Origin: Synergistaceae bacterium
GTDB taxonomy: Bacteria; Synergistota; Synergistia; Synergistales; Aminobacteriaceae
Direction: 5' to 3'
Length of the DNA stretch: 36,066 nt
NCBI GenBank assembly: GCA_017443945.1
Contig: JAFSXS010000086.1
Span: forward strand, 1 to 36,066
A program made the position numbers and the translations under genes. Position 1 is the stretch's first letter; each line of letters opens with the position of its first letter. Shown here one piece after another: positions 6,469 to 21,399 of the stretch. The notes under the pieces are model-generated. The model did no database searches. It worked only from the letters and a program-made list of their open reading frames with translations, and had not been told where the DNA came from.

Positions 6469-7593
6469 TTACTTCCTTCCTAAAATTATATCAATGTGAT
6501 TCGAATCGCCCTCGTACCTGTAATTTATCTCGTCGGCGATCCGCTTTAACATTGCAATCCCTAAATGTATATTATCTGAGTCGCTGTCCTCGTCAATGTC
6601 GAACGGGTTAAACTTTTTCGCGTTGTTGGCCGTTAAATTTATGACAGTCGACGAGTCAGCCTCAGAATATGATACGCTGATGATAATATCAGGATTTGAT
6701 TTATTCTCATAGCAGCCCGCAATAACTTCGTACAAAAGCTCCTCACAACATAATTGCAGTCTGTATGAAAGTTTTGAGTCGATTCCGTATTTTTCCGCGA
6801 AATTGTGAATGCCTCCATGAAGTGCTAACAAGTCAAATTCAGGCGTATTAATCTCGTACGTGAAATATTTTAACTTGCGGATAAATGCAATAGTCTTCTC
6901 ACCTTTGGGCGAGTCAAAAATTTCTGCGGGCGTTCCCTGCTCGTAAATGCCTCCGTCAGCGAAAAATAAAACTCTGTCAGCAACTTCACGCGCAAAATTC
7001 ATCTCGTGAGTTACAATTAACATCGTCATATTATGTTTCGTCAACATTCTAATCATCGCAAGAACTTCACCAACCATAGTGGGATCTAATGCGCTTGTAG
7101 GTTCGTCAAATAATAAAACTTTCGGCTTCATCATCAGTGAACGGCAAATTGCGATTCTCTGCTGCTGTCCTCCTGATAATTTAGCGGGCATTGAGTGAGC
7201 CTTTGACGTGAGACCGACTTTAGACAGCCAGTCCATAGCTTGTGATTCGGCCTCTTTGCGCGGAACATTCAATAATTTTACGGGAGCAAGACACAAATTA
7301 TCAAGCACGTTCATATGTGAGAACAAATAAAATTTCTGGTAGACCATGCCCATTTTACGGCGTATTTGATTCACATTTGCATTCTTGGCCGTTATCTCGC
7401 TGCCGTCAATGAAAACTTGTCCGCTGTCAGGAACTTCGAGAAGCTCAAGAGAACGAAGAAAAACGCTTTTCCCGCAGCCTGAACCGCCTATTATCGCAAT
7501 TTTTTCGCCCTCGTTGATCTCTACACTTAAATTGTTTAGGACTTGACGACTCCCGAATGACTTACACAAATTTTTTACTTCAATTAAGCTCAT
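6469..7593 (-). CDS. Polar amino-acid type ABC transporter ATPase fused to an RsbW-like HATPase domain
   Basis: A 374-residue protein. Residues 1-240 are a complete GlnQ/HisP-type ATPase: Walker A GGSGCGKS (36-43), Q-loop, signature LSGGQQQR (139-146), Walker B VLLFDEPTSALD (159-170), switch His in VTHE. Known ATPases of this class end near residue 245. Here about 130 more residues follow that resemble the RsbW/SpoIIAB anti-sigma kinase fold: helix LQLCCEELLYEV (279-290) as N-box and a NIHLGIAMLKRIADEINYRY segment (341-360) as the G2 region. The N-box Asn is replaced by Glu (289), and the usual D-x-G of the G1 box is absent (LTANNAKKF), so ATP binding by this domain is doubtful. It may instead be a docking module for a STAS protein. 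The gene overlaps the permease gene by 4 bp. Confidence 0.9.
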   Translation of the reverse strand: MSLIEVKNLCKSFGSRQVLNNLSVEINEGEKIAIIGGSGCGKSVFLRSLELLEVPDSGQVFIDGSEITAKNANVNQIRRKMGMVYQKFYLFSHMNVLDNLCLAPVKLLNVPRKEAESQAMDWLSKVGLTSKAHSMPAKLSGGQQQRIAICRSLMMKPKVLLFDEPTSALDPTMVGEVLAMIRMLTKHNMTMLIVTHEMNFAREVADRVLFFADGGIYEQGTPAEIFDSPKGEKTIAFIRKLKYFTYEINTPEFDLLALHGGIHNFAEKYGIDSKLSYRLQLCCEELLYEVIAGCYENKSNPDIIISVSYSEADSSTVINLTANNAKKFNPFDIDEDSDSDNIHLGIAMLKRIADEINYRYEGDSNHIDIILGRK

Positions 7594-8270
7594 TCTGCCG
7601 CCGCCTCCTTGCGTGAATTAATATAATCCGAAAGCGCAAATAACCCGTGTACTATGTAAGCAAGAGCAAGATAAATCAACATTCCGATTATAATCGTAAT
7701 CATAGGCTGCATTGTTCTTGACGCAATATTGTTTATTACGCGCGTTAAATCAGTAATCGAGACATAACCGACAACACTTGTCCATTGAATCAAATTTATA
7801 ACTGTTGACTGATAAACGGGCTTTGCAATAGTAATTATCTGCGGTAGAGTAACGAGCCTGAACGACTGCCACGCTGAGAAACCCAGAGTCCTAGCTGCCT
7901 CGACTTGGCCGTAATCAGTTGCATTAATCGACGCACGCAATAATTCAGCAACATGGGCGGCAACATTCAGCGAAAAAGTTACGATTGCTATAGTGTTTGC
8001 TTCAAGTGAACTGCGCGCAAATATCCCGTAATACATCAGCATTAACAGCATTAAGACAGGAGATCCGCGCAAAATTACTATATAAACCGTCGCACAAAAA
8101 CTCAAAATTTTTATCTTGGACATTCTCAGCAGACACACAAACGCGCCTAATAATGTCCCCCATAACAGCGAAAATAAAGAAATCTCAACTGTTGCGCCAA
8201 GACCCTTAAGAATCGTCCAGTATGAACCGCCTTGAATCAATATTCTATAAAGTATTTCACTTAGAGTCAT
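7590..8270 (-). CDS. Polar amino-acid ABC transporter permease (HisM/GlnP type)
   Basis: A 226-residue inner-membrane permease with about five hydrophobic helices and the EAA loop that contacts the ATPase (GQVEAARTLGFSAWQSFRLV, about 122-141, followed by TLPQ). The N-terminal amphipathic stretch TILKGLGATVEISLFSLLWG is typical of this family. Only one permease gene is present, so a homodimer is expected. It overlaps the ATPase gene (ATGA) and starts 3 bp after the last of seven solute-binding-like genes, so it almost certainly belongs to the same transport unit. Confidence 0.92.
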   Translation of the reverse strand: MTLSEILYRILIQGGSYWTILKGLGATVEISLFSLLWGTLLGAFVCLLRMSKIKILSFCATVYIVILRGSPVLMLLMLMYYGIFARSSLEANTIAIVTFSLNVAAHVAELLRASINATDYGQVEAARTLGFSAWQSFRLVTLPQIITIAKPVYQSTVINLIQWTSVVGYVSITDLTRVINNIASRTMQPMITIIIGMLIYLALAYIVHGLFALSDYINSRKEAAAE

Positions 8271-8273
8271 GAT

Positions 8274-9098
8274 TTAATTCGAACCTTCCATAGCAGCTAA
8301 TTTCAAATGATAAATCGTATCAAACTGGTAATAAGGATCCGACACAATTACGCCCTCTGGTATATCAGGCTGAGTCTTTAGTCCGCGATAAATTTCGAAC
8401 CAGAACACTAAATCAGCACGTCCGGACGCAAGCGCAGAAGCTCTAGCAGGTGACTCAATGCTCAAGATTTCAACGTTAAATTTTAGTCTCTTGGCAATTT
8501 CCGCGAGTAAAGCAATGTTAAAACCGTCGGGCTTTCCGTCTGGAGCAGCAAAATCTATCGGGGGCAAATCTCCCGTTATAGCAGCTTTTATCGTTCTTGC
8601 TCCGTCAAATTTCGTGAAGTGAATCGGCGCAGGAGTCTCCATCATTGAGTCACGCGGCGTTATGTATTGTGCCTGAAGAGTTATTAATGTTCCGTCGCGC
8701 TTAAGTTCTGCAAGAGCCTTGTTAAATTCGTCCCTGAGTGCTTGATTATCGGACTTGAATCCAAACGCAAAGGCCATCGGATTATCTTTCATTATTACGG
8801 TGCAGTTAATTAAATAATTCGGATCAGCAGTCATTAAATATTCTGCTACGACTTCAGGCAAAGCGATCTCGTCAATTTTTCTAACCTGTAGAGCTAACTG
8901 CATTGCATTAATCGAGTCAAAATATTCAAATTCGGGCCTGCTCAAGTTTTCCAGCGAATAATATTGATAGCGGACACTTGACGCAAAATCAGAGGCATTC
9001 ATGCAAAGTTTTGCTAACATTCCGACACGATGACCCGCCGCAAATGACGAACCCGCAAATAAAGCAATTAATAATAAAGCAGCAAAAAATTTTTTCAT
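8274..9098 (-). CDS. Permuted solute-binding-like protein, paralogue 7 of 7
   Basis: A 274-residue exported protein (signal peptide 1-20, SFA). Residues 23-147 match the segment normally found in the C-terminal part of SBP_bac_3 proteins: HRVGMLAK, SINAMQLAL, KIDEIALPE, FAFGFKSDNQALRDEFNKAL and KRDGTL. Residues about 168-268 match the segment normally at the N-terminus: AITGDLPPIDF, DGFNIALLAEIAKRL, SGRADLVFW and VSDPYY. The half order is therefore reversed relative to HisJ-type proteins. It is the copy nearest the permease gene, so it may be the principal delivery protein. Ribosome binding site AGGAG lies 12 bases before the ATG. The ligand is unknown. Confidence 0.85.
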   Translation of the reverse strand: MKKFFAALLLIALFAGSSFAAGHRVGMLAKLCMNASDFASSVRYQYYSLENLSRPEFEYFDSINAMQLALQVRKIDEIALPEVVAEYLMTADPNYLINCTVIMKDNPMAFAFGFKSDNQALRDEFNKALAELKRDGTLITLQAQYITPRDSMMETPAPIHFTKFDGARTIKAAITGDLPPIDFAAPDGKPDGFNIALLAEIAKRLKFNVEILSIESPARASALASGRADLVFWFEIYRGLKTQPDIPEGVIVSDPYYQFDTIYHLKLAAMEGSN

Positions 9099-9113
9099 GA
9101 TATTACATCACTC

Positions 9114-9920
9114 CTATTTTAATTTTATGTGATAAAGCCTGTCCAAGTGCAAATAAGGATCAGATACAATTATTCCTTCGGGTATATCAGGCTGATTGTC
9201 TAGTTCGCGATAAAATTCAAGCCAGAATACTACATCAGCACGACCTGACGCAAGAGCAGCAGCCCTAGCACTAGAGTCTATATTTATGATCTCGACGTTA
9301 CATTTTAACCTGCGTGAAATTTCTGCAATTAAAGCTACATTATATCCTTCGGGCGTTCCGTCGGGTGCAACGTAATCGAGCGGGGGCAAGTCTCCAGTTA
9401 CAGCAATTTTTATTGTCTTGGCACCGTCAAATTTTGTGAATTTCACAGGGGCGGGCGGATTAACTAATGATTTGTCAAATTCCGAGTATTGAGCCTTAAT
9501 AAGTGCGAGAGTCCCGTCATTCTTCATTTCAGCAAGTGCCTTGTTTACTTCATCGCGCAGATTTGCATTATCAGCGTTAAACCCGAACACTAACGACGGA
9601 AAATTTTTTCCCAGAAGTATTATGCAATTAATCATATAGTCAGGGTTAATATCGAGCATATAATTAACAACAGGTTCAGACAATAAAATTTCGTCAATCT
9701 CTCCGGCCTTCAAAGCTAACTGCATTGCACTAATTGACGGATAATATTTTATTTCCGGTCTGCTCATAGCTGTACGTGTAAATATTTGAGAGTCAGCAAT
9801 TTTTGCTAGTTCTTCAGCGTCCGCATTGAGCTTTACGATTATTCCGACTCGATGACCCGCCGCAAATGACGAACTTGCAAATAAAGCTATTAACAACAGG
9901 GCAGTAAAAATTTTCCGCAT
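9114..9920 (-). CDS. Permuted solute-binding-like protein, paralogue 6 of 7
   Basis: A 268-residue exported protein (signal peptide to SFA, residue 20), closest to paralogue 7: the signal region and the AGHRVG start of the mature protein are shared. The lobe-II-like half comes first (SISAMQLALKAGEIDEILLSE; FGFNADNANLRDEVNKAL; KNDGTL). The lobe-I-like half is second (AVTGDLPPLDY; GYNVALIAEISRRL; SGRADVVFW; VSDPY), ending at residue 268 with almost no tail. The stop is 15 bp before the next gene. Role as ligand binder or sensor is inferred from the fold and operon. Confidence 0.85.
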   Translation of the reverse strand: MRKIFTALLLIALFASSSFAAGHRVGIIVKLNADAEELAKIADSQIFTRTAMSRPEIKYYPSISAMQLALKAGEIDEILLSEPVVNYMLDINPDYMINCIILLGKNFPSLVFGFNADNANLRDEVNKALAEMKNDGTLALIKAQYSEFDKSLVNPPAPVKFTKFDGAKTIKIAVTGDLPPLDYVAPDGTPEGYNVALIAEISRRLKCNVEIINIDSSARAAALASGRADVVFWLEFYRELDNQPDIPEGIIVSDPYLHLDRLYHIKLK

Positions 9921-9926
9921 AATAAA

Positions 9927-10799
9927 TTAATCCTCGTCTAATCTGACATGTAAAAATGTATCCCAATCAAAATATGAATCAGATAAAATTATTCCGTCGG
10001 GTATATCGTATTGAGCCTGAACGCTTCTATCGACTTCAAACCAGAAAACTACTTCAACACGTCCCGAAACAAGAGCCGCTGCCCTTGCCCCTGAGCTGAA
10101 CTGTACCGGCAAAATATTCACTCGTAAACGTCTGCCGATTTCTGCGAGCACTGCCTCATTAAAGCCTGCCGGGTGTCCGTTTGCGTCAATGTAATCAACT
10201 GGGGGCAAATCTCCTGTTACTGCGACTCTTATTAACGGCGCTCCGGGAAAATGCTCGAACTTTACCGCAAATTTTTCGCGCTCCTTCTTTGAGTTATTGC
10301 CGTAAAGATAATTATATTGCGGGTCATAGGCGTTGAAATCTTTTATGTACTTCTGCACGAGATTCATTAATACCCAGTCGGCCCTCATTGAACGTAAAGC
10401 AGCATTCCATTTATTAGCGAGCTCTTGATTATCCTTCATGAACCCAAAGCATAGACTCATTGTCCCCGACTTTGAGACGCACGAGACAGTATATTTTTTG
10501 TTCGTCTTGATTAAGTATTCCGCTACAAAATCAGGCAAAATCATTTCTTCAATGTCATTGCGGTCTACTGCTAATTGCATTTCAGAGAGAGAGTCATAAA
10601 ATTTTGCTGTACTTAATGCGTGATCACCGCCGAGAATCGCCCAGCCTCTAGTTGTCCATGACTCTTTTACGATTTTGTAGAACTCGTCGGGATTAGTCTT
10701 TAAGCGCGTCAAGAATCCAACTTCTAAATTTTCAGAGTCAGCAGCCCATACAGGACAGGCCGCTAACACAATCAAGCATAACACAAAAAATTTCTTCAT
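9927..10799 (-). CDS. Permuted solute-binding-like protein, paralogue 5 of 7 (divergent)
   Basis: A 290-residue exported protein. The N-terminus can be read as a signal peptidase I site (VWA, about residue 19) or a lipobox (LAAC, 12-15), so a lipid anchor is possible. It has the same permuted layout: SLSEMQLAVDRNDIEEMILPD and CFGFMKDNQELANKWNAAL, then AVTGDLPPVDY, AGFNEAVLAEIGRRL, SGRVEVVFW and LSDSYF. It is more divergent than its neighbours: the DGTL motif reads ADWVL, and an insert of about 20 residues (NAYDPQYNYLYGNNSKK) lies between the halves. This suggests specialisation. Ribosome binding site AGGAG is 11 bases before the start. Confidence 0.83.
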   Translation of the reverse strand: MKKFFVLCLIVLAACPVWAADSENLEVGFLTRLKTNPDEFYKIVKESWTTRGWAILGGDHALSTAKFYDSLSEMQLAVDRNDIEEMILPDFVAEYLIKTNKKYTVSCVSKSGTMSLCFGFMKDNQELANKWNAALRSMRADWVLMNLVQKYIKDFNAYDPQYNYLYGNNSKKEREKFAVKFEHFPGAPLIRVAVTGDLPPVDYIDANGHPAGFNEAVLAEIGRRLRVNILPVQFSSGARAAALVSGRVEVVFWFEVDRSVQAQYDIPDGIILSDSYFDWDTFLHVRLDED

Positions 10800-10803
10800 A
10801 AAA

Positions 10804-11670
10804 TTAATGTCTCCTGTACATGTTCAAGAAATCACGACGATAATTCCAGCTTGAAGAATTTACTTTTTCGGGGATCTTCTTAATGTGTATAAATTTGTTC
10901 CAGACATAATAAGGCTCGGACAAAATTACGCCGTCGGGAGTATCTGTCTTATCTCTGCCGGCCGTATCAATCTCGTACCAGAAAACAACATCAGCACGCC
11001 CTGACGATAAAGCAGCACTTCTCGCACCCGAATCAATATTTACAAGTTCAATATTTTTCTTCAGCAATGCCGCAATTTCCGACAATACAGCCGTATTAAA
11101 TCCCGCTGGAGTCCCGTCTGCCGCAATAAAATCTATCGGGGGCATGTCTCCTGTTACAGCAATTTTTATCGTCTCTGCGTTGTCGAAATGCTGAAATTTT
11201 ACCGGCTCAGGGTCTGACGTTGAATTTGTTATGTAAAGTCCTTCAATCGCTGATAATGTCCAGTCATCGCGGAGAGTCTGAAGAGCTTTATTAAATTCGT
11301 CGCGCAACTTTTTATTTTCTGCAAGGAAACCAAAAGCGAGTCCCCTTCCCGGTGCAGGCAATGCAAGAGCTGACTCAAAATTTTTGTTGCGATTCAGGAA
11401 ATAACCGGCGATAGATTCGGGTAAAATCATTTGATCGATTTCGCCTTTGTCTAGTGCCATCTGCATAGCTGTTAAAGTGTCATAAAATTTTGTGATGACG
11501 TTCAATATTTCGTTATGGGGCGCAAAAGTTTTTCTCCAAATATTTGCGTATTCAGACTCGGTGCTGTTCATTTTCGCGAGCAGACCAAGTTTTATTACGC
11601 GCATTTCAAGAGCTGAAGCACTCCCCGCCGTTAAAGCAAGGAGCAGAAACAAACATAAAAATTTTTTCAT
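10804..11670 (-). CDS. Permuted solute-binding-like protein, paralogue 4 of 7
   Basis: A 288-residue exported protein (signal peptide 1-20, ASA). First half: TLTAMQMALDKGEIDQMILPE, AFGFLAENKKLRDEFNKAL, DDWTL. Second half: AVTGDMPPIDF, AGFNTAVLSEIAALL, SGRADVVFWYE, LSEPYY. It differs from the others by a C-terminal tail of about 25 basic and aromatic residues (KVNSSSWNYRRDFLNMYRRH) after the fold should end, which could contact a partner or the envelope. AAGGAG lies 8 bases before the ATG. Confidence 0.84.
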   Translation of the reverse strand: MKKFLCLFLLLALTAGSASALEMRVIKLGLLAKMNSTESEYANIWRKTFAPHNEILNVITKFYDTLTAMQMALDKGEIDQMILPESIAGYFLNRNKNFESALALPAPGRGLAFGFLAENKKLRDEFNKALQTLRDDWTLSAIEGLYITNSTSDPEPVKFQHFDNAETIKIAVTGDMPPIDFIAADGTPAGFNTAVLSEIAALLKKNIELVNIDSGARSAALSSGRADVVFWYEIDTAGRDKTDTPDGVILSEPYYVWNKFIHIKKIPEKVNSSSWNYRRDFLNMYRRH

Positions 11671-11682
11671 GAGTATATCTCC

Positions 11683-12504
11683 TTATTTCTTAATTTCCAG
11701 TGCTGCACGTGAGTCCAGCAAATAAGGCTCAGAAATCACCGCACCCGTTAACTTGTCAAGCGGATAGGGCATTATCTCGCCTTTATCGTTATAAATCGAG
11801 CAAATCCAGAACAATAAATCAACTTTTCCCGACATTAAAGCACTTTCGCGCGCTCCTGTGTCAATATTTACAAGCTCAAAATTTTTGTTGATTCTCTTGC
11901 TCAAATCTGCGAGAAAAGCTGTGTTAAATCCTGCCGGCGTTCCATCAGCTAATATACAGTCCATCGGGGGCAAGTCTCCTGTTATAGCGATCTTGAGTGA
12001 TTCTGCACCGTCAATAACAGGAATTATAACCGGTTCAGGGTCATTATTGCCGAGTTCGAGAATATATTTTTGCTGTAATTTCGTGAGAGTCCCGTCGGCC
12101 TTCATGTCAGAAATTGCGCGGTTGACTGCTGTTAATATTTCCCGTTTCGGTTCGAGTGCTGCAAGAGAGTAGCCCATTACTTTATTATGATGATGATCGA
12201 TATAATTTAATTTGCTATTACGTGCAGCAATATATTTTGCAACTATTGAAGGCAGAGCGAATCTGTCAATTTTCCCCGCGTTCAGTGCCATTAGCATAGA
12301 CGTTAAATTATCGTAGAAAACTATAATATTTTCATTCTTGAAGCCTGCTTGTTTGCCCTCAAGAACTGCTATTTTTTCCGTCCATGTAAGAACGTCCGAC
12401 TCACTAAGGCCAATGCACGTAAGAGCCCCTATTCTCGCCGGAGCAGAAAAACTTACTCCCTCACAAAATATCACAAGCAAGACAGCTAATAAAATTTTAC
12501 GCAT
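11683..12504 (-). CDS. Permuted solute-binding-like protein, paralogue 3 of 7 (twin of paralogue 2)
   Basis: A 273-residue exported protein (signal peptide 1-20) that is a close duplicate of the next gene upstream: equal length, near-identical second half (PPMDCILADGTPAGFNTAFL) and a 39-base identical DNA stretch near 11840-11885. Half order is permuted. The usual FW-E segment after SGKVDLLFW is replaced by a Cys/Ile-rich ICSIYNDKG, and the end reads SEPYLLDSRAALEIKK. An HHH cluster (DHHHNK) replaces the region just before the FGF strand and is specific to this copy. There is no strong ribosome binding site, so coupling to the upstream gene 3 bp away is likely. Confidence 0.84.
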   Translation of the reverse strand: MRKILLAVLLVIFCEGVSFSAPARIGALTCIGLSESDVLTWTEKIAVLEGKQAGFKNENIIVFYDNLTSMLMALNAGKIDRFALPSIVAKYIAARNSKLNYIDHHHNKVMGYSLAALEPKREILTAVNRAISDMKADGTLTKLQQKYILELGNNDPEPVIIPVIDGAESLKIAITGDLPPMDCILADGTPAGFNTAFLADLSKRINKNFELVNIDTGARESALMSGKVDLLFWICSIYNDKGEIMPYPLDKLTGAVISEPYLLDSRAALEIKK

Positions 12505-12507
12505 AAT

Positions 12508-13329
12508 TTATTTCTTCACTTCCAATGCTGCACGTGAGTCCAGCAAATAAGGCTCTGAGACTGCTACACCAGTGAAATTATCAAGAGGATAGGGCATTCT
12601 GTCGCCCTTCTCATTATAGACCGAACGAGACCAGAATAACATATCAACACGACCCGATGATAAAGCAGTTTCGCGCGCTCCTGTGTCAATATTTACAAGC
12701 TCAAAATTTTTCTTGATTCGTTTGCTCAATTCCGCGAGAAAAGCTGTGTTAAATCCTGCCGGCGTTCCATCAGATAAAATGCAGTCCATCGGGGGAATAT
12801 CTCCTGTTACTGCGATTTTGAACGTGCTTTCACGATAAATAACGGGCATTGTAACAGGTTCAGGATCATTATTGCCGAGCTCAAGAATATATTTGCGCAT
12901 TAATTTAGCAAGAGTCCCGTCTGCCTTCATGTCAAAAATTGCAAGGTTGATTCCCATTAACATATTACGCTTTGACTCCGGCACTGCAATAGAATAACCG
13001 ATTACAGCGTTATTGTGATAATCTACGTAATTCAAATTTTCATTTCTGGCTGCGATGTAACGTGCACACATTGACGTTAAAGAAATTTTGTCAACCTTTC
13101 CTGCGTTGAGTGCCATTAAGAGACTCGTTAAATTCTCGTAGAAAGCTATACTATTTTCTTTGTCAACGGCTTCCGGCTGACCCTCAAGAGGCGCAATTTT
13201 CGACATCCATTCGATTACGCCATTCTCATCAAGTCCGACGGGTGAAAGCATACCGGTTTTTATCGGCGCAGAAAAACTCATTCCCGCACAACAAATTACA
13301 AGCAGAGAAGCTAATAAAATTTTACGCAT
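12508..13329 (-). CDS. Permuted solute-binding-like protein, paralogue 2 of 7 (twin of paralogue 3)
   Basis: A 273-residue exported protein (signal peptide 1-20). Permuted arrangement: NLTSLLMALNAGKVDKISLTS, then KADGTLAKLMRKYI in the first half; AVTGDIPPMDC, AGFNTAFLAELSKRI, SGRVDMLFW and SEPYLLDSRAALEVKK in the second. By eye it is about 70% identical to paralogue 3, which indicates a recent tandem duplication. GGGAGG lies 12 bases upstream of the ATG, inside the gap to paralogue 1. Confidence 0.85.
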   Translation of the reverse strand: MRKILLASLLVICCAGMSFSAPIKTGMLSPVGLDENGVIEWMSKIAPLEGQPEAVDKENSIAFYENLTSLLMALNAGKVDKISLTSMCARYIAARNENLNYVDYHNNAVIGYSIAVPESKRNMLMGINLAIFDMKADGTLAKLMRKYILELGNNDPEPVTMPVIYRESTFKIAVTGDIPPMDCILSDGTPAGFNTAFLAELSKRIKKNFELVNIDTGARETALSSGRVDMLFWSRSVYNEKGDRMPYPLDNFTGVAVSEPYLLDSRAALEVKK

Positions 13330-13332
13330 GAT

Positions 13333-14250
13333 TTATTTATTCCTCCCTATAATTAAATCAGTGTCCCAAGTGTAATAAGGCTCGGACAAAATTACTCCGT
13401 CAATAGAGTCCTTCATGTTTACGTTTTTACCCTTCAAGCCCTTAACGTTATTAGTGTTAAAGCCTTCAGTGTTCCTATACCAGAAAACGACATCAGCACG
13501 TTCTGACGATAAAGCCGCAGACCTTCCGCCAGCATCTACACTAATGAGCCTGATATTTTTCTTGAGTCTCTTGCCTATTTCGCTTAAAATCGCAGTGTTG
13601 TAGCCCGTCGGAGTCCCGTTCGCTGAAATAAAATCTATCGGCGGCAAATCTCCCGTTACTGCAACTTTTATAACGGCTGCTCCCTTGAAATTTTCAAATT
13701 TTACCGGCTGAGGCTCGCTGTTTCCCAAATCTGTAATATATTTGCTCTCGATACGCTTTAATGTTCCGTCCTTCTTCATTGCGTTAATAGCGGTGTTAAA
13801 TTCTTTCTGTAATTTCGTGTTCCCGCGCTTGAATCCAAATGAAATAGTTGACGGCATCATGTTTAACGAGAAATAAATATCATAATTTGAATTATTGTTC
13901 ACGAGATAAAGTGCTACGGCCTCAGGTAATGAAATCTCGTCAATTCTTCCCGCACGTAAAGCCATTTCCATAGCCATTAACGAGTCAAAAAATTTGATTA
14001 CCCTGCGCGTTTTGACAAGCGAAGCAAGAAAACCTTCTAAACGGTCATAGTTTGCCCACTCGCCTTTTTCGTCATCAGTCGGGATTAATGGAGCTACAGC
14101 CTTTCTCAAGTCGTCAAGACTCTCTTGAAATTCCTGCTCTGTAGTGCCCAAATAAGTTAATACACCTGCATTGACAGAATTTTTTTCCGCCGCAAAAACT
14201 GACTGACCCACCAGCAATAATAATATTACTGCACAAATAAATTTTTTCAT
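13333..14250 (-). CDS. Permuted solute-binding-like protein, paralogue 1 of 7 (longest)
   Basis: A 305-residue exported protein (signal peptide 1-20, VFA). It shows the permutation most clearly. After the signal peptide comes NAGVLTYLGTTEQEF (about 27-41), equivalent to the GVLQGTTQETF hinge-to-lobe-II segment in the middle of HisJ. GRIDEISLPEAVALYL (101-116) and FGFKRGNTKLQKEFNTAI...DGTL (138-164) follow. The canonical N-terminal segment AVTGDLPPIDF (197-207), GYNTAILSEIGKRL, DVVFW (253-257) and SEPYY (289-293) comes last. It carries extra insertions at about 50-82 and 263-280. AAGGAGG is 16 bases before the ATG, an unusually long spacer. It is the first of the seven copies to be transcribed. 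Confidence 0.85.
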   Translation of the reverse strand: MKKFICAVILLLLVGQSVFAAEKNSVNAGVLTYLGTTEQEFQESLDDLRKAVAPLIPTDDEKGEWANYDRLEGFLASLVKTRRVIKFFDSLMAMEMALRAGRIDEISLPEAVALYLVNNNSNYDIYFSLNMMPSTISFGFKRGNTKLQKEFNTAINAMKKDGTLKRIESKYITDLGNSEPQPVKFENFKGAAVIKVAVTGDLPPIDFISANGTPTGYNTAILSEIGKRLKKNIRLISVDAGGRSAALSSERADVVFWYRNTEGFNTNNVKGLKGKNVNMKDSIDGVILSEPYYTWDTDLIIGRNK

Positions 14251-14271: not shown

Positions 14272-15474
14272 TTAAAATTTTGCATGAGATAAAATGTTCA
14301 TGTAACTTGTAAATTTAGGAAATAGATTTTGTCTCGCACTTGTTACGAATTTATTTATCTGAACCGGCGTAAAATTTCCCATACCAGGCAGAAGCGCAGA
14401 ATCTAATAACGCAGCAATCTTTATAATATATTCACGTTCTATTATGTCATTCAAGTCAAAGTATGCGCGAATCATTAAGTCATAGAAAATTTTTGCCCTG
14501 TTTGGCTCGAATCCCGTTAAAGATTTTGCAAATATATCTGACTCTAATACGTGAATCATATAAATTTCTGCGAGATCAAAAATTGGATTCCCGACACTTG
14601 AACCCGACATATTAAGCAAAATTATCTCGTCGTCCTGAACAAATACATTTCCAGCATGATAACTGCCGTAAACGAACGTATTTTTTTCCGGGACTGCATT
14701 TATTAAATTTGCAAGCTGTTCGATTTCATTCTTAGTGTAATGACTGGCCGCGTGCTTGAGATATTCAAGAACTAAACTTTTTGTCTTGGGAAAAATTCCC
14801 TCTTCAGGTACGCACGAATGAATTTGCTTGAGTGCTGTTCCCATATTGACGGCGTATTGATTTAGATTCCAGTCCTGAAAATTTACTAGTGATGCAACTG
14901 TGCGGGCGTTCGGCATCTCGTAAACAAGTCCGTATCTGTCATTATAATGCACTATATAATATGATATAAGCGTAGGGATTCCGCAAAGGAGTGCTGCTTT
15001 GGTCAATTTCATCTCGTTTTCCACGTCAGCAAGATTTTTCCCAGCCGGATATAATTTCATAAGCTCATCAGAATTAACCCTGAAAATTTCTGTTCCGTCA
15101 GACTTGCCGATTAATTGACCGTTAATTTGTGAAAGCTCCTTAACTTCAGACACTTTTATATTATCTTCAGCTACTGATACATCAAAAATTTGCGAGAAAC
15201 CTGTTACTTCGAGAATCTCATAAATTTTCGGTGATACATTAGTTAATACCACCTGAGAGTTACATTTTTTATGGATGGCCAGCATTGCACGAAGTCCCGC
15301 GCTGGAAATATAATCAAGACCCCTGCAGTCGATAATTACAGTAGAGTCATTCTTATCGCCTACATGAGACATTATGACGTTCAAGAAATTTTGTGAGCTG
15401 GCCGCGTCGAGTCTGCCCGAAATAGAAAATTTTAATGCACCCGCTTTTGATGTATTAATTGAAAATTTTTCCAT
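14272..15474 (-). CDS. STAS domain fused to an APH/Bud32-like pseudokinase
   Basis: A 400-residue cytosolic protein. Residues 1-100 are a STAS anti-anti-sigma domain with the phosphorylation-site motif DYISSAGLRAML (Ser57/Ser58). Residues about 118-390 align with the kinase domain of the fusion at 20230-21399, but key residues are lost. The glycine-rich loop is degraded (GKSDGTEIF). The HGD catalytic loop is YGSYHAGN (Asp to Ser271; Asn276 kept), and the metal-binding Asp of LID is Asn288 (LLNMSG). The N-lobe Lys (MKLY, Lys140) remains. Catalysis is therefore unlikely, and a scaffold or ligand-sensing role is inferred. The start overlaps the RsbW-like gene stop by one base (TAATG). Confidence 0.85.
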   Translation of the reverse strand: MEKFSINTSKAGALKFSISGRLDAASSQNFLNVIMSHVGDKNDSTVIIDCRGLDYISSAGLRAMLAIHKKCNSQVVLTNVSPKIYEILEVTGFSQIFDVSVAEDNIKVSEVKELSQINGQLIGKSDGTEIFRVNSDELMKLYPAGKNLADVENEMKLTKAALLCGIPTLISYYIVHYNDRYGLVYEMPNARTVASLVNFQDWNLNQYAVNMGTALKQIHSCVPEEGIFPKTKSLVLEYLKHAASHYTKNEIEQLANLINAVPEKNTFVYGSYHAGNVFVQDDEIILLNMSGSSVGNPIFDLAEIYMIHVLESDIFAKSLTGFEPNRAKIFYDLMIRAYFDLNDIIEREYIIKIAALLDSALLPGMGNFTPVQINKFVTSARQNLFPKFTSYMNILSHAKF

Positions 15475-15869
15475 TATGCAAGCCTCTTTGTTATCGTAAA
15501 AATATTTCTGTCGTCCTTGCGTTCATAATTAAGAGAGTCCATACTTTTTTTGACGAGATAAATACCAAGCCCGCCGATTTTGCGTTCTTCAGCAGGTAAA
15601 GTAACATCGGGATCAGGTTTCGCTAACGGGTCAAAGTATACGCCCTCATCAATAAAAACTATCTTGGCCGATTCAGAATTTATGTCAGTCAGGATAATTG
15701 CATATTCCGAACCTGAATAATGAGCGATATTCACAAAAATTTCTTCAATAGCAACATCGAGCTGCATTTGTATTTTCGGGCTGCAGCCGTTTTCTTCCAA
15801 GTCGGCATCAATGAACGCAAGAACATCATCAAGTTTATTTACGTCTGCTGAAACTTTAAGTTCTTTCAC
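15474..15869 (-). CDS. RsbW/SpoIIAB-like serine kinase (anti-sigma factor type)
   Basis: A 131-residue GHKL-fold protein with all boxes intact: N-box AIEEIFVNIAHYS (Glu42, Glu43, Asn47), G1 box IDEGVYFDP (Asp74, Gly76), and G2 box GGLGIYLVKKSMD (99-111). In known systems such kinases phosphorylate a STAS protein on Ser/Thr and bind either that protein or a sigma factor. Candidate substrates here are the STAS domains encoded at 18596-18892, 14272-15474 and 20230-21399. It overlaps the phosphatase gene by 4 bp and the STAS-pseudokinase gene by 1 bp, so the three are translationally linked. Confidence 0.9.
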   Translation of the reverse strand: MKELKVSADVNKLDDVLAFIDADLEENGCSPKIQMQLDVAIEEIFVNIAHYSGSEYAIILTDINSESAKIVFIDEGVYFDPLAKPDPDVTLPAEERKIGGLGIYLVKKSMDSLNYERKDDRNIFTITKRLA

Positions 15870-17506
15870 GTCTGATCACCTCCGAAATATCGCAGACATA
15901 ACATAGTAATATCATCAAATTGCGGGGCTTCTCCTGTGAAGTCGTCAACAGATTTCTTCATGTGAGTCAAAATCTCGTTTGCGTTGAAATTTTTTGTCTC
16001 GTTGAGGGCTGCTAACATTCTATCAGTGCCGTATAACTCTTCATGAATATTTGTTGCTTCTGCTACTCCGTCAGTGTAGATATAAAGATTTTCGCCGGGG
16101 TGTAAATCAAATTCGTACTGCCTGAACTTGATTCCTTCCATAGTTGCGACTGCTGGACTCTGTTTTGTCTTGACGAGCTCATAATCTGCACCGTTTTTAT
16201 TTACTGCCGGATATTCATGGCCTGCGTTGGAAGCGATAATTTTTCCCGTTGATATTTCGAGAATGCCAAGCCAGACGGTTACAAATAAATCTGCCTCGTT
16301 GCCCTCGCATAACTGATTATTTACGTCGCTTAATATTTCTGAAGGACTGCCGCCCATTTTTGCACGATCCTTTATTAAAGTTTTAGCGATTACCATAAAT
16401 AAAGCTGCGGGGACTCCTTTGCCTGATACATCAGCCATGACTAAAGCAATATGATTATTATCTATCATGAAGAAGTCGTAAAAATCGCCGCCGACCTCTT
16501 TTGCTGGTTTCATTGCTGCGTAGAGTTCAAATTCTTTGCGTTCGGGAAAATCTTTCGGGAGCATGTCAGCCTGAATCTGTGTAGCGACGTTTAACTCGGC
16601 TTTAATCTGCTCTTTCTCTTGAGTCACGCGCGTTAAATTCTCGACGTAGCTAATTATGTCCTTCTCCATTACGTCAATAGTGCGTGCAAGCTGGCCGATC
16701 TCGTTTCTTGTCTTGATTTCAGCGTGTAAAGTCTCTTCAGGGAGCGTATTTTTTCGTGCAAAACGTGTAGCTTCCTTTGCAATTTTCTGAATCGGTGCTA
16801 ACAAGTTGCGATTTAAATACAGCCCGTAAATAATTAACACAACGAGCAATAAAATTACTGCTGCCCTTAGAGTCCCGTATAAATATGCAAATCGAGCGGA
16901 GTCTAAATCTTCCATGCGCCTTTCAACGCCTATAACGCCTATAATATCGCCGAAACCTTCACGAATGCTGTAAATCGGGACGAAAACTGTTACATGATTC
17001 CCGGACTGATATTCATTTTCCGGCCTGTAGCTCGCAAATTCTGCCCTGTTTGAGCGTTTATCATAAATTTCACTGAAAGCCTTTAAATATACGGGGTCCG
17101 TCTGCGTGAATGAATGTCCCGGAGAATATGCGCCTATTCTCGTAAATTTCGGGTTTGCTACGTTCACTAAAAATGTTACTTCCTCGTGTTTGTCGCCTGA
17201 TGCCTTGAATAAATATATGTATGTAGCGTCTTGAGTCGTCGCGAGTCTGTTCCATTCAAGTTTTAAGCGGTTAAATTGCCTCTGCCAGTTAGTTGAAGTG
17301 TAATTTGTGCTGCTGACAAATGCTTTATTGAGTAATGAACTTGCAGTCCGTGCAGTGTTATAAGCTGAATTTGCGTATTGACTTTGAATCGCGCCGGTAA
17401 ATTCATAATAGCCTATAACACTTACAGTTAGAGTCAATGCAGCAAGAACAATGACAACTCCCGCGAGAATCTCAAATGCTATATTGTGCCTGAGTCTAAT
17501 TTTCAT
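15866..17506 (-). CDS. Membrane-bound RsbU/SpoIIE-type PP2C phosphatase with extracytoplasmic sensor and HAMP
   Basis: A 546-residue protein. TM1 spans about 10-32, then an extracytoplasmic domain of about 175 residues that looks like a Cache-type sensor (about 38-208), TM2 (about 213-233), HAMP (about 234-285), a short coiled coil (about 290-315), and a PP2C/SpoIIE catalytic domain. Metal-binding motifs are complete: GGDFYDFF (Asp341), ADVSGKGVPAALF (Asp359), NAGHEYP, YTDGVAEA (Asp479) and FDDITML. It should dephosphorylate phospho-STAS proteins in response to an external signal, reversing the RsbW-like kinase. It overlaps its neighbours by 4 bp on both sides. Confidence 0.93.
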   Translation of the reverse strand: MKIRLRHNIAFEILAGVVIVLAALTLTVSVIGYYEFTGAIQSQYANSAYNTARTASSLLNKAFVSSTNYTSTNWQRQFNRLKLEWNRLATTQDATYIYLFKASGDKHEEVTFLVNVANPKFTRIGAYSPGHSFTQTDPVYLKAFSEIYDKRSNRAEFASYRPENEYQSGNHVTVFVPIYSIREGFGDIIGVIGVERRMEDLDSARFAYLYGTLRAAVILLLVVLIIYGLYLNRNLLAPIQKIAKEATRFARKNTLPEETLHAEIKTRNEIGQLARTIDVMEKDIISYVENLTRVTQEKEQIKAELNVATQIQADMLPKDFPERKEFELYAAMKPAKEVGGDFYDFFMIDNNHIALVMADVSGKGVPAALFMVIAKTLIKDRAKMGGSPSEILSDVNNQLCEGNEADLFVTVWLGILEISTGKIIASNAGHEYPAVNKNGADYELVKTKQSPAVATMEGIKFRQYEFDLHPGENLYIYTDGVAEATNIHEELYGTDRMLAALNETKNFNANEILTHMKKSVDDFTGEAPQFDDITMLCLRYFGGDQT

Positions 17507-18906: not shown

Positions 18907-19545
18907 CTAAAATTTTTTGCTGATTACTAATTTTACACTATTGCGCGTGATTCCGACTTGAACATCATCGGCGATATTCGCAATAATTGATTTCTCAAGT
19001 TCGTCTGCTGCCTCGTCAAGCTCTGAGTCTTGATTTTTTTCGCGTGCTGCTTCGAGTTCGTCTTTATATTTCTGCATTGACCACGCATAAACAGCTTCTG
19101 ACATTCCAGCGTCTAACATTCCTAGTGCGCCATAATTGAAATTTCCTGCGCCTGTTTCGTTTTGCAGCTTGAAACTTTCTTCGAGTCCATAAATGCCGGC
19201 TTCAAAGATTCCGCGAATTTTTTCCATTATGCCGACGGGAGCTGTATTTTCTCCGGTGCTTGAGAGTTCTAAAATATTTCTGCGGTTCTCGTAGTTAATA
19301 TCTGAAGATTTGCCCTCAAGAAATAATTTGCAGGTTTTGTCTTCCTGTTCGAGCCATAAATCAGCCTCAAAATCTTTCGTTACAGCTTTTATCATGCTTA
19401 CTGCTTCTTCAGCCAAAAGCCGTAATTTCATAGAATTTTTGCTATTTAGTCCGATTGTGGCGGAGAAATTTTCTGCGAGCTTCAAGACTCCCTGTAATCC
19501 CTCGCCGTTATTAGAGACTTTAACTTTATCGGTCTGTAGATTCAA
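18907..19545 (-). CDS. HATPase-like (degenerate RsbW-related) protein, first gene of the operon
   Basis: A 212-residue cytosolic protein. Residues about 37-75 (KLRLLAEEAVSMIKAV...ADLWLEQEDKTCKLFLEGK) resemble the N-box helix and next strand of RsbW-like kinases. The Asn of the N-box is missing (AEEAVSM), no G1 Asp-x-Gly is visible, and a charged helical insert occupies about 155-185. The end (VQVGITRNSVKLVISKKF) resembles the last strand of the fold. It probably binds a STAS partner without being an active kinase. The start is TTG with GGGAGG 10 bases upstream; no ATG in this frame fits a ribosome binding site. It is followed 14 bp later by the STAS gene. Confidence 0.65.
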   Translation of the reverse strand: MNLQTDKVKVSNNGEGLQGVLKLAENFSATIGLNSKNSMKLRLLAEEAVSMIKAVTKDFEADLWLEQEDKTCKLFLEGKSSDINYENRRNILELSSTGENTAPVGIMEKIRGIFEAGIYGLEESFKLQNETGAGNFNYGALGMLDAGMSEAVYAWSMQKYKDELEAAREKNQDSELDEAADELEKSIIANIADDVQVGITRNSVKLVISKKF

Positions 19546-20213: not shown

Positions 20214-20229
20214 TTTGCAGGAGGACTAC

Positions 20230-21399
20230 ATGAATACAATTTTTTTGACAGGACGAATCGACTCAAACAATGCCGGCGAATGGGAGAAAAAAATTATTGG
20301 CGATAATTTAATATTTGACGCGTCAGAACTTGAATATATTTCCAGCGCAGGACTTAGAGTCTTAATGAAGGCACGCAGGAAGTCAGGCCGAAAAATTAAC
20401 ATAATCAACGTATCACGCGAAGTCTATGACATTTTCGAGACTACCGGCTTCACAGAGTTATTCAACGTTAAGAAGGCTTTGCGCAAAATTTCCGTCGAAG
20501 GCTGCGAGGAAATCGGCTCCGGTTCTTACGGGCGAGTCTACAGAATCGACTCCGAAACTATCGCGAAAATTTATAATCCCGGCATAAATTTAGATTTTGT
20601 ACAGCGCGAACGAGACACAGCACAAAAAGTTTTCTTGCTTGGAGTCCCAACAGCTATATCTTATGACGTGATTCAATGCGGCGATTCTTACGGCACATTA
20701 TATGAATTGCTAAATGCTAAGACAGTTGCACAAATAATTTCAGAAAATCGCGAAAGAATACCAGAAATGGGCAAAAAATGCGCTCAATTGCTCAAACAGT
20801 TACATAATATAAAAGTTGAACAGGACTCAAACCTTCCAAGCCGTAAAGTTAAACTCTCGAACTTAATCAAGAGTCTTGCAGCTTACCTAAAGCCCGAAGA
20901 GTCAAATAAAATTTTAGCATTCATTGACACAGTACCAGACCGAAAAACTTTTTTGCACGGCGATTTTAACGCGAAAAATATCATGGTCGGCGATAACGGC
21001 GAATTTCAATTAATAGACTTAGGCGACGCAGCTTACGGCCACCCGCTTTGGGATATTGCCGGGATGATTATTCCTTATGTACATTTCGTGAAGACTGCCC
21101 CGTTAAGTGTTCAGGAAAAATCAAAAATGTTAGCTTTCAACTGTGAGGACGCGCCTATTTTCTGGAGTGAATTTTGCAAAGAGTATTTCACCTTCAAGAC
21201 TCAGCAGGAAATAGAGACCTTCACGGAAAAATTTATGATTTATTCATATTTGATTCATGTAGTATTCTCTATAAATTATGCGGGCGATAACAAAGAACTC
21301 AAGCAGCGGGCAATAAATTCAACAGTTCGAGGCGAGTTACTCCCGGCAATCGAGAAAATAAAAGATTTCAGCTTCATAAATGAATATTTCGAGTCATAG
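20230..21399 (+). CDS. STAS domain fused to an APH/Bud32-like kinase with intact catalytic residues
   Basis: A 389-residue cytosolic protein starting at the ATG five bases after AGGAGG; an upstream TTG at 20215 in the same frame overlaps the ribosome binding site and is rejected. Residues 1-88 form a STAS domain with LEYISSAGLRVLM (Ser38/Ser39). Residues about 91-370 are a small-molecule/protein kinase-like domain of the aminoglycoside phosphotransferase fold: GSGSYG loop (96-101), Lys113 (IAKIY), catalytic loop HGDFNAKN (Asp245, Asn250) and metal site LIDLGD (Asp263). Its paralogue at 14272-15474 has lost these residues. The substrate is unknown; phosphorylating a STAS protein or a small molecule are both possible. 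It converges with the CobD-like gene, overlapping by 6 bp. Confidence 0.88.
   Translation: MNTIFLTGRIDSNNAGEWEKKIIGDNLIFDASELEYISSAGLRVLMKARRKSGRKINIINVSREVYDIFETTGFTELFNVKKALRKISVEGCEEIGSGSYGRVYRIDSETIAKIYNPGINLDFVQRERDTAQKVFLLGVPTAISYDVIQCGDSYGTLYELLNAKTVAQIISENRERIPEMGKKCAQLLKQLHNIKVEQDSNLPSRKVKLSNLIKSLAAYLKPEESNKILAFIDTVPDRKTFLHGDFNAKNIMVGDNGEFQLIDLGDAAYGHPLWDIAGMIIPYVHFVKTAPLSVQEKSKMLAFNCEDAPIFWSEFCKEYFTFKTQQEIETFTEKFMIYSYLIHVVFSINYAGDNKELKQRAINSTVRGELLPAIEKIKDFSFINEYFES

Follow-up and report, generated by a model that had tools for sequence, protein, structure and literature searches.

Family-3 substrate-binding proteins (SBPs) are among the best-studied receptors and form the basis of many biosensors. 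Natural circular permutation is known from other SBP classes, namely from TpMglB-2 (Tp0684) of Treponema pallidum, a member of "Type Ic / Cluster Bc" with a crystal structure and observed glucose binding (PMC4990184), and from the glycine betaine binding proteins OpuAC and ProX (PMC2395249). In the engineered biosensor cpLAO-BP the chain was opened at one of its two hinge linkers and closed between the old termini, and the product binds lysine with a dissociation constant of 107 µM versus 3 µM reported for the native protein (PMC5087393), while GlnPQ of Lactococcus carries tandem substrate-binding domains (SBDs) fused to the permease (PMC8025302). The DNA analysed here, a stretch of 36,066 nucleotides from a Synergistaceae bacterium of the rumen (hereafter the window), contains an array of seven adjoining SBP genes on the minus strand (8274-14250), the products of which are 268-305 amino acids (aa) long and all begin with a signal-peptide-like N-terminus; most of the genes have a purine-rich stretch immediately 5' of the start. 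The two halves of the classical chain stand in swapped order in all seven proteins, and at a probability of roughly 0.7 we regard them as secreted, naturally circularly permuted family-3 SBPs, most likely interchangeable receptors for the permease and ATPase of an ATP-binding cassette (ABC) transporter encoded downstream.

The family membership of both halves and their order are apparent from profile comparisons. First, SBP_bac_3 (PF00497) is matched by all seven proteins with 49.6-70.6 bits against a curated cut-off of 26.4, and the best stretch places profile positions of about 1-63 at protein positions near 170-255. Next, in every copy the NCBIfam family-3 models match in two parts, model positions of about 145-260 near protein positions 50-170 and model positions of about 23-110 near 165-260, the first-half match being weak on its own in copies 3 and 4 (E about 0.002-0.02). 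Finally, a profile of the seven proteins compared with AncQR (PDB 4zv1) aligns query residues 45-143 to 130-230 and residues 163-262 to 9-103 (E 1.5e-18 for the whole), and L122, a permuted protein of the same genome, covers nearly all of AncQR in the same manner, with residues 172-264 on 10-103 and residues 27-147 on 110-231. The classical PF00497 order of the N-terminal part of lobe I, lobe II and C-terminal helices is thus found in none of the seven, and their first halves are related to SBP lobe II. The lysine/arginine/ornithine SBP subfamily TIGR01096 does not include them, as the best scores of 65.2 bits native and 66.0 bits rotated stay far below its cut-off of 256.35. The earlier note, which had proposed the permutation from motif order, gave the coordinates of all seven open reading frames (ORFs) correctly, and the swapped motif order recurs in each translation; in the protein encoded at 13333-14250, DGTL at 161 and SEPY at 289 are where it had placed them, TGDLPPID begins at 199, and GTT lies at 35 instead of 34, all within one residue.

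According to a search with family profiles, the genome of the window encodes 18 permuted family-3 SBPs, fourteen of the type found in the window and four of a canonical type (C18, C57 and two on C100), which are much closer to classical proteins and retain the amino-acid-binding motif in full; one of the four adjoins its own permease and ATPase. For a rotation test, permuted proteins were rotated in silico at the linker and scored with an independent classical profile built from Negativicutes proteins. The scores of the four canonical permuted proteins rose from 67-89 to 92-131 bits, a gain of 25-42, with one contiguous full-length match, and the best cut always fell inside the linker between the halves, whereas the two classical controls, one from the same genome and one held out, scored highest when left unrotated. 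The window copies are more divergent from classical proteins than these relatives; two of the seven gained from rotation and five did not, the narrow classical profile being uninformative for those five. With TIGR01096, rotation of copies 1, 2 and 4 gives a single match over model positions of about 23-250 in place of two native pieces, which for copy 4 cover the same two parts. In a lobe scan 463 ORFs showed the order II-I and 12 controls the classical order I-II, the former coming from overlapping loci and hence not being a number of distinct genes; the swapped order is accordingly no product of chance.

The predicted structure agrees with the profiles. An AlphaFold model of copy 2, made with 51 relatives, is a single two-lobed binding protein (predicted local distance difference test, pLDDT, 91.5; predicted template-modelling score, pTM, 0.88), in which lobe II is followed by two C-terminal helices, a linker at about residues 125-147 and lobe I; the strand order is therefore rotated and not classical, with the element-by-element correspondence to GlnBP being our own reading. 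The first half comprises lobe II together with the two C-terminal helices that in classical proteins pack on lobe I, which puts the cut at one hinge crossing. The chain would start at the crossing just before lobe II, pass this lobe and then the former C-terminal helices, reach the old N-terminus over an added linker of some 17 residues, and end after the lobe I strand that formerly led into lobe II, so that the two-lobed Venus flytrap fold would be kept with one terminus on each lobe at the hinge. In VIA-align, where Z differences under 1 are ties, OpuAC of B. subtilis ranks first for copy 2 (Z 10.8, 201-207 residues aligned), followed by GlnP, LAO and others (Z 9-9.8, about 170 residues); the low-identity matches of about 170 residues to classical proteins are read as a probable pseudo-symmetric superposition of lobe on lobe. 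A second model, of the canonical permuted protein L072, was based on only 9 sequences and is weaker (pLDDT 77, the first 28 residues under 50), with only lobe I aligning in true register at high identity (TmArgBP, 41%, root-mean-square deviation (rmsd) 1.7 Å). OpuAC is the best structural match by Z for both models at 10-15% identity in the structural alignment. Sequential Foldseek alignments gave template-modelling (TM) scores of about 0.3-0.5 and rmsd of 6-12, as expected for a permuted order, and were not used as evidence for a different fold.

The genes around the array are consistent with an importer. In the direction of transcription the window encodes a SpoIIE phosphatase, a HATPase, a STAS-APH protein, the seven SBPs, a permease and an ATPase-HATPase fusion (Table 1). 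The permease gene lies directly behind one to six window-type SBP genes in all 30 related loci that show this permease, and the fusion comes next in 24 of them, some of these loci ending at contig edges. SBPs with signal-peptide-like N-termini are thus encoded with a HEQRo-type permease and its cognate ATPase in a conserved cluster, as for receptors of polar-amino-acid ABC importers, and we infer transport as the function of the system; most likely the seven paralogues would share the single permease and ATPase encoded directly downstream. The mean identity among the seven copies is 51% in lobe I and 31% in lobe II, which suggests a common ligand handle in lobe I combined with a varying lobe II. 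Across two phyla, Selenomonadaceae included, 25 homologues retain the fusion, which is also present in a Selenomonas ruminantium isolate. An RsbU homologue occurs in 16 of the 30 loci, the partner-switch genes being frequent and not universal; together with the HATPase domain of the ATPase, the upstream SpoIIE phosphatase, HATPase and STAS proteins could regulate expression or activity of the transporter. In the consensus of the HATPase_c_2 domain of the fusion homologues the N-box Asn position is Glu and the G1 box looks degenerate, which indicates that the domain may bind partners instead of acting as a kinase. Elsewhere in the window, a second fusion of STAS and an APH-type kinase-like domain (20215-21399, plus strand) lies beside SpoIIE and HATPase genes like the first one, and a 212 aa protein encoded at 18907-19545 on the minus strand has no Pfam match and has homologues adjoining window-type SBP arrays in many relatives.

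Table 1. Features of the window around the array of permuted SBP genes.
Feature	Position	Strand	Remarks
Polar-amino-acid-type ABC ATPase (GlnQ/EhuA-like) with C-terminal HATPase_c_2 (RsbW-like)	6469..7593	-	Profile matches
ABC transporter permease (BPD_transp_1; HEQRo family TIGR01726)	7590..8270	-	68.6 bits vs cut-off 42.2; directly downstream of the SBPs
Permuted family-3 SBP, copy 1, lobe II first and lobe I last	8274..9098	-	274 aa
Permuted family-3 SBP, copy 2	9114..9920	-	268 aa; structure predicted
Permuted family-3 SBP, copy 3	9927..10799	-	290 aa; weak first-half match to NCBIfam models
Permuted family-3 SBP, copy 4	10804..11670	-	288 aa
Permuted family-3 SBP, copy 5	11683..12504	-	273 aa
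Permuted family-3 SBP, copy 6	12508..13329	-	273 aa
Permuted family-3 SBP, copy 7	13333..14250	-	305 aa; first SBP gene in transcription order
STAS domain fused to APH-type kinase-like domain	14272..15474	-	Upstream, same gene run
Stand-alone RsbW-like HATPase (anti-sigma-factor kinase type)	15474..15869	-	Profile match
RsbU-like membrane protein with HAMP and SpoIIE phosphatase domains	15866..17506	-	Profile match

The permuted proteins are widespread. Among the places found in the genome of the window there is a single classical-order SBP_bac_3 match (C32, L001), which resembles cyclohexadienyl dehydratase. The search across Synergistota gave strong window-type matches in 42 of the 43 genomes of the genus and also in g11, with relatives in other Synergistaceae; single canonical permuted proteins occur alongside classical ones in G036, G039 and G045, and the remaining Synergistota sampled have mainly classical full-length matches. 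In Negativicutes, window-type proteins were found in a subset of genomes, from Selenomonadaceae and Quinella. Metagenome-assembled genomes supply most of the sequences; on the complete plasmid pSRC1, however, the isolate S. ruminantium TAM6421 carries a protein, WP_014431151.1, which is permuted according to the same lobe scan and bears no annotation beyond "transporter substrate-binding domain-containing protein". Behind it are encoded a permease and an ATPase, the latter matching the ATPase-HATPase fusion along its entire length. This transporter (L296) lies between a chemotaxis receptor gene and genes for an indolepyruvate oxidoreductase and a phenylacetate-CoA ligase, neighbours that might faintly hint at aromatic compounds as ligands.

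Several relatives are fused to a permease. In their single chains a permease domain comes after one to eight II-I modules, and lobe II starts right behind the signal region; the simple II-I-permease chains have 505-541 aa in Negativicutes and 507-515 aa in Synergistota, L183 and L185 reach 1851 and 1760 aa with six modules and a permease domain each, and L184:2161-8922 (plus strand) encodes 2254 aa with eight modules and one permease domain. In an 843 aa chain, L202:3694-6222 (minus strand), a permease stands between two permuted SBPs, and this may be a fusion of neighbouring genes or a sequence error. In a related member of the order, L286:1090-2598 (plus strand) encodes a secreted 503 aa protein of the order I-II-I-II, that is, two complete classical binding proteins in tandem. 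Its II-to-I linker has 16 residues compared with a median of 17-18 in permuted proteins, and permuted L122 can be aligned without interruption to the stretch of GlnPQ that runs from lobe II of SBD1 into lobe I of SBD2; both fit a permutation by duplication, with L286 as a candidate model of the likely intermediate. The permuted form would then likely have arisen from a classical SBP that was duplicated into a tandem two-domain chain and subsequently lost lobe I of its first domain and lobe II of its second. The earlier proposal of tandem duplication with shifted ends is plausible, with candidate intermediates in the L286 and GlnPQ tandems, which do not prove it.

Three results weigh against secreted, permuted family-3 receptors as the explanation of the array. 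First, two residues by which classical members of the HisJ/GlnH kind hold alpha-amino acids, the arginine of T-x-x-R in lobe I and an aspartate in lobe II, are missing from the window type. A motif of the T-x-x-[ED]-R-[KQ] type was not matched in the seven window proteins, and 211 window-type sequences show no conservation of T-x-x-R and have a residue other than Asp at the lobe II position; nearly invariant in their lobe I are instead T-G-D-x-P-P-x-D, an Arg, F-W, an Asp and S-x-P-Y. The 38 canonical permuted sequences retain T-x-E-R...DFS-PY and have both the Arg and the lobe II Asp in 100% of cases. The positions were paired with the GlnBP ligand residues from profile alignments and from what we take to be the GlnBP binding site. 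Since the amino-acid clamp is lost, the window type may bind something other than amino acids, or nothing. Next, OpuAC leads classical SBPs in the structural comparison by a Z of only about 1, which VIA-align counts as a tie. Finally, while the window-type proteins and the canonical permuted proteins each fall into one group of the tree, and the fused ones nearly so, the tree does not unite all permuted proteins; the approximately unbiased (AU) test gives p 0.46 for a single clade, and tree and AU tests taken together neither support nor reject a single origin.

The loss of the motif also fits an alternative in which the permuted proteins are sensors that pass an extracellular signal through the permease and the ATPase-HATPase fusion to the SpoIIE/HATPase/STAS partner switch, with little or no import. 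The partner-switch genes, which precede the SBP genes within one gene run both in the window and in many relatives, and the conserved HATPase_c_2 domain on the ATPase speak for such a role. The Selenomonadaceae loci and S. ruminantium, however, have the core of SBP, permease and ATPase with no upstream genes detected in the stretch read, the Walker and signature motifs are retained in the consensus of the ATPase half of the 25 fusion homologues, and a full permease is always kept, which makes a purely sensory system unlikely. Pairing between chains, whereby lobe I of one paralogue would complete lobe II of another by domain swapping or in heterodimers, is compatible with the lobe order, and in tandem (II-I)n chains neighbouring lobes could be paired either way, but the compact single-chain model (pTM 0.88), the occurrence of stand-alone single-copy members such as L121 and the S. 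ruminantium protein, and tandem chains that start with II and mostly finish with I leave it very improbable. An error of gene calling or assembly, which the prevalence of metagenome bins might suggest, is practically negligible given hundreds of intact ORFs with signal peptides from many assemblies and two phyla, and the many independent genomes and the complete pSRC1 plasmid of an isolate rule out a frameshift or assembly artefact; the earlier note had argued against a frameshift from the identical order in all copies.

With natural permuted receptors as the preferred explanation, a broader and more tentative proposal can be made, which we consider possible and rather doubtful. The hinge-cut permutation might constitute a distinct and successful lineage that replaced the classical form for transport in the genus, was amplified into receptor arrays sharing one regulated transporter whose ATPase has a built-in anti-sigma-like domain, and, because each lobe carries a terminus, was linked in series into single-chain importers in which one polypeptide holds up to eight receptors and a homodimer sixteen. 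A natural and widespread permutation that matches the engineered cut of LAO-BP offers ready-made scaffolds with one terminus per lobe, and the presence of classical, duplicated and permuted forms in one phylum provides a test case for the emergence of circular permutants. Domain databases and annotation pass the permuted proteins under a generic name and leave the rearrangement unmarked.

Compared with classical family-3 SBPs (HisJ, LAO-BP, GlnH and ArtJ; PF00497 / TIGR01096; type II, cluster F), the window proteins are homologous by profile in both lobes and are encoded with a permease and ATPase of like type, but their parts are swapped, the termini fall at a hinge crossing, a linker of some 17 residues has been added, and the amino-acid clamp is gone. 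The earlier note knew of no described permuted SBP family of this type; natural permutants exist in other SBP classes, and for family 3 the literature search found none, which is weak evidence of novelty since most subscription papers were outside its coverage. TpMglB-2 is likewise a naturally permuted ABC binding protein, but it is a type I sugar-binding protein with another cut site that adds a fourth crossover, and family-level homology to it is lacking; membership of the window proteins in Type Ic, with its type I fold and MglB-type cut, is unlikely because of their homology to family 3, which is of type II. OpuAC and ProX share the permutation, and OpuAC is the top structural match by Z, but they represent a separate SBP family. 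The rearrangement in cpLAO-BP is of the same type as in the window proteins, but is man-made, with a (GGS)4 linker and fused fluorescent proteins. GlnPQ has its SBDs in tandem ahead of the permease as in the (II-I)n-permease relatives, but with two SBDs of classical order compared to one to eight permuted modules, and the literature search found no report of a GlnPQ-like architecture with permuted modules. New here are single chains that join one to eight permuted modules to a permease, and a classical protein in duplicate that serves as a model of the likely intermediate.

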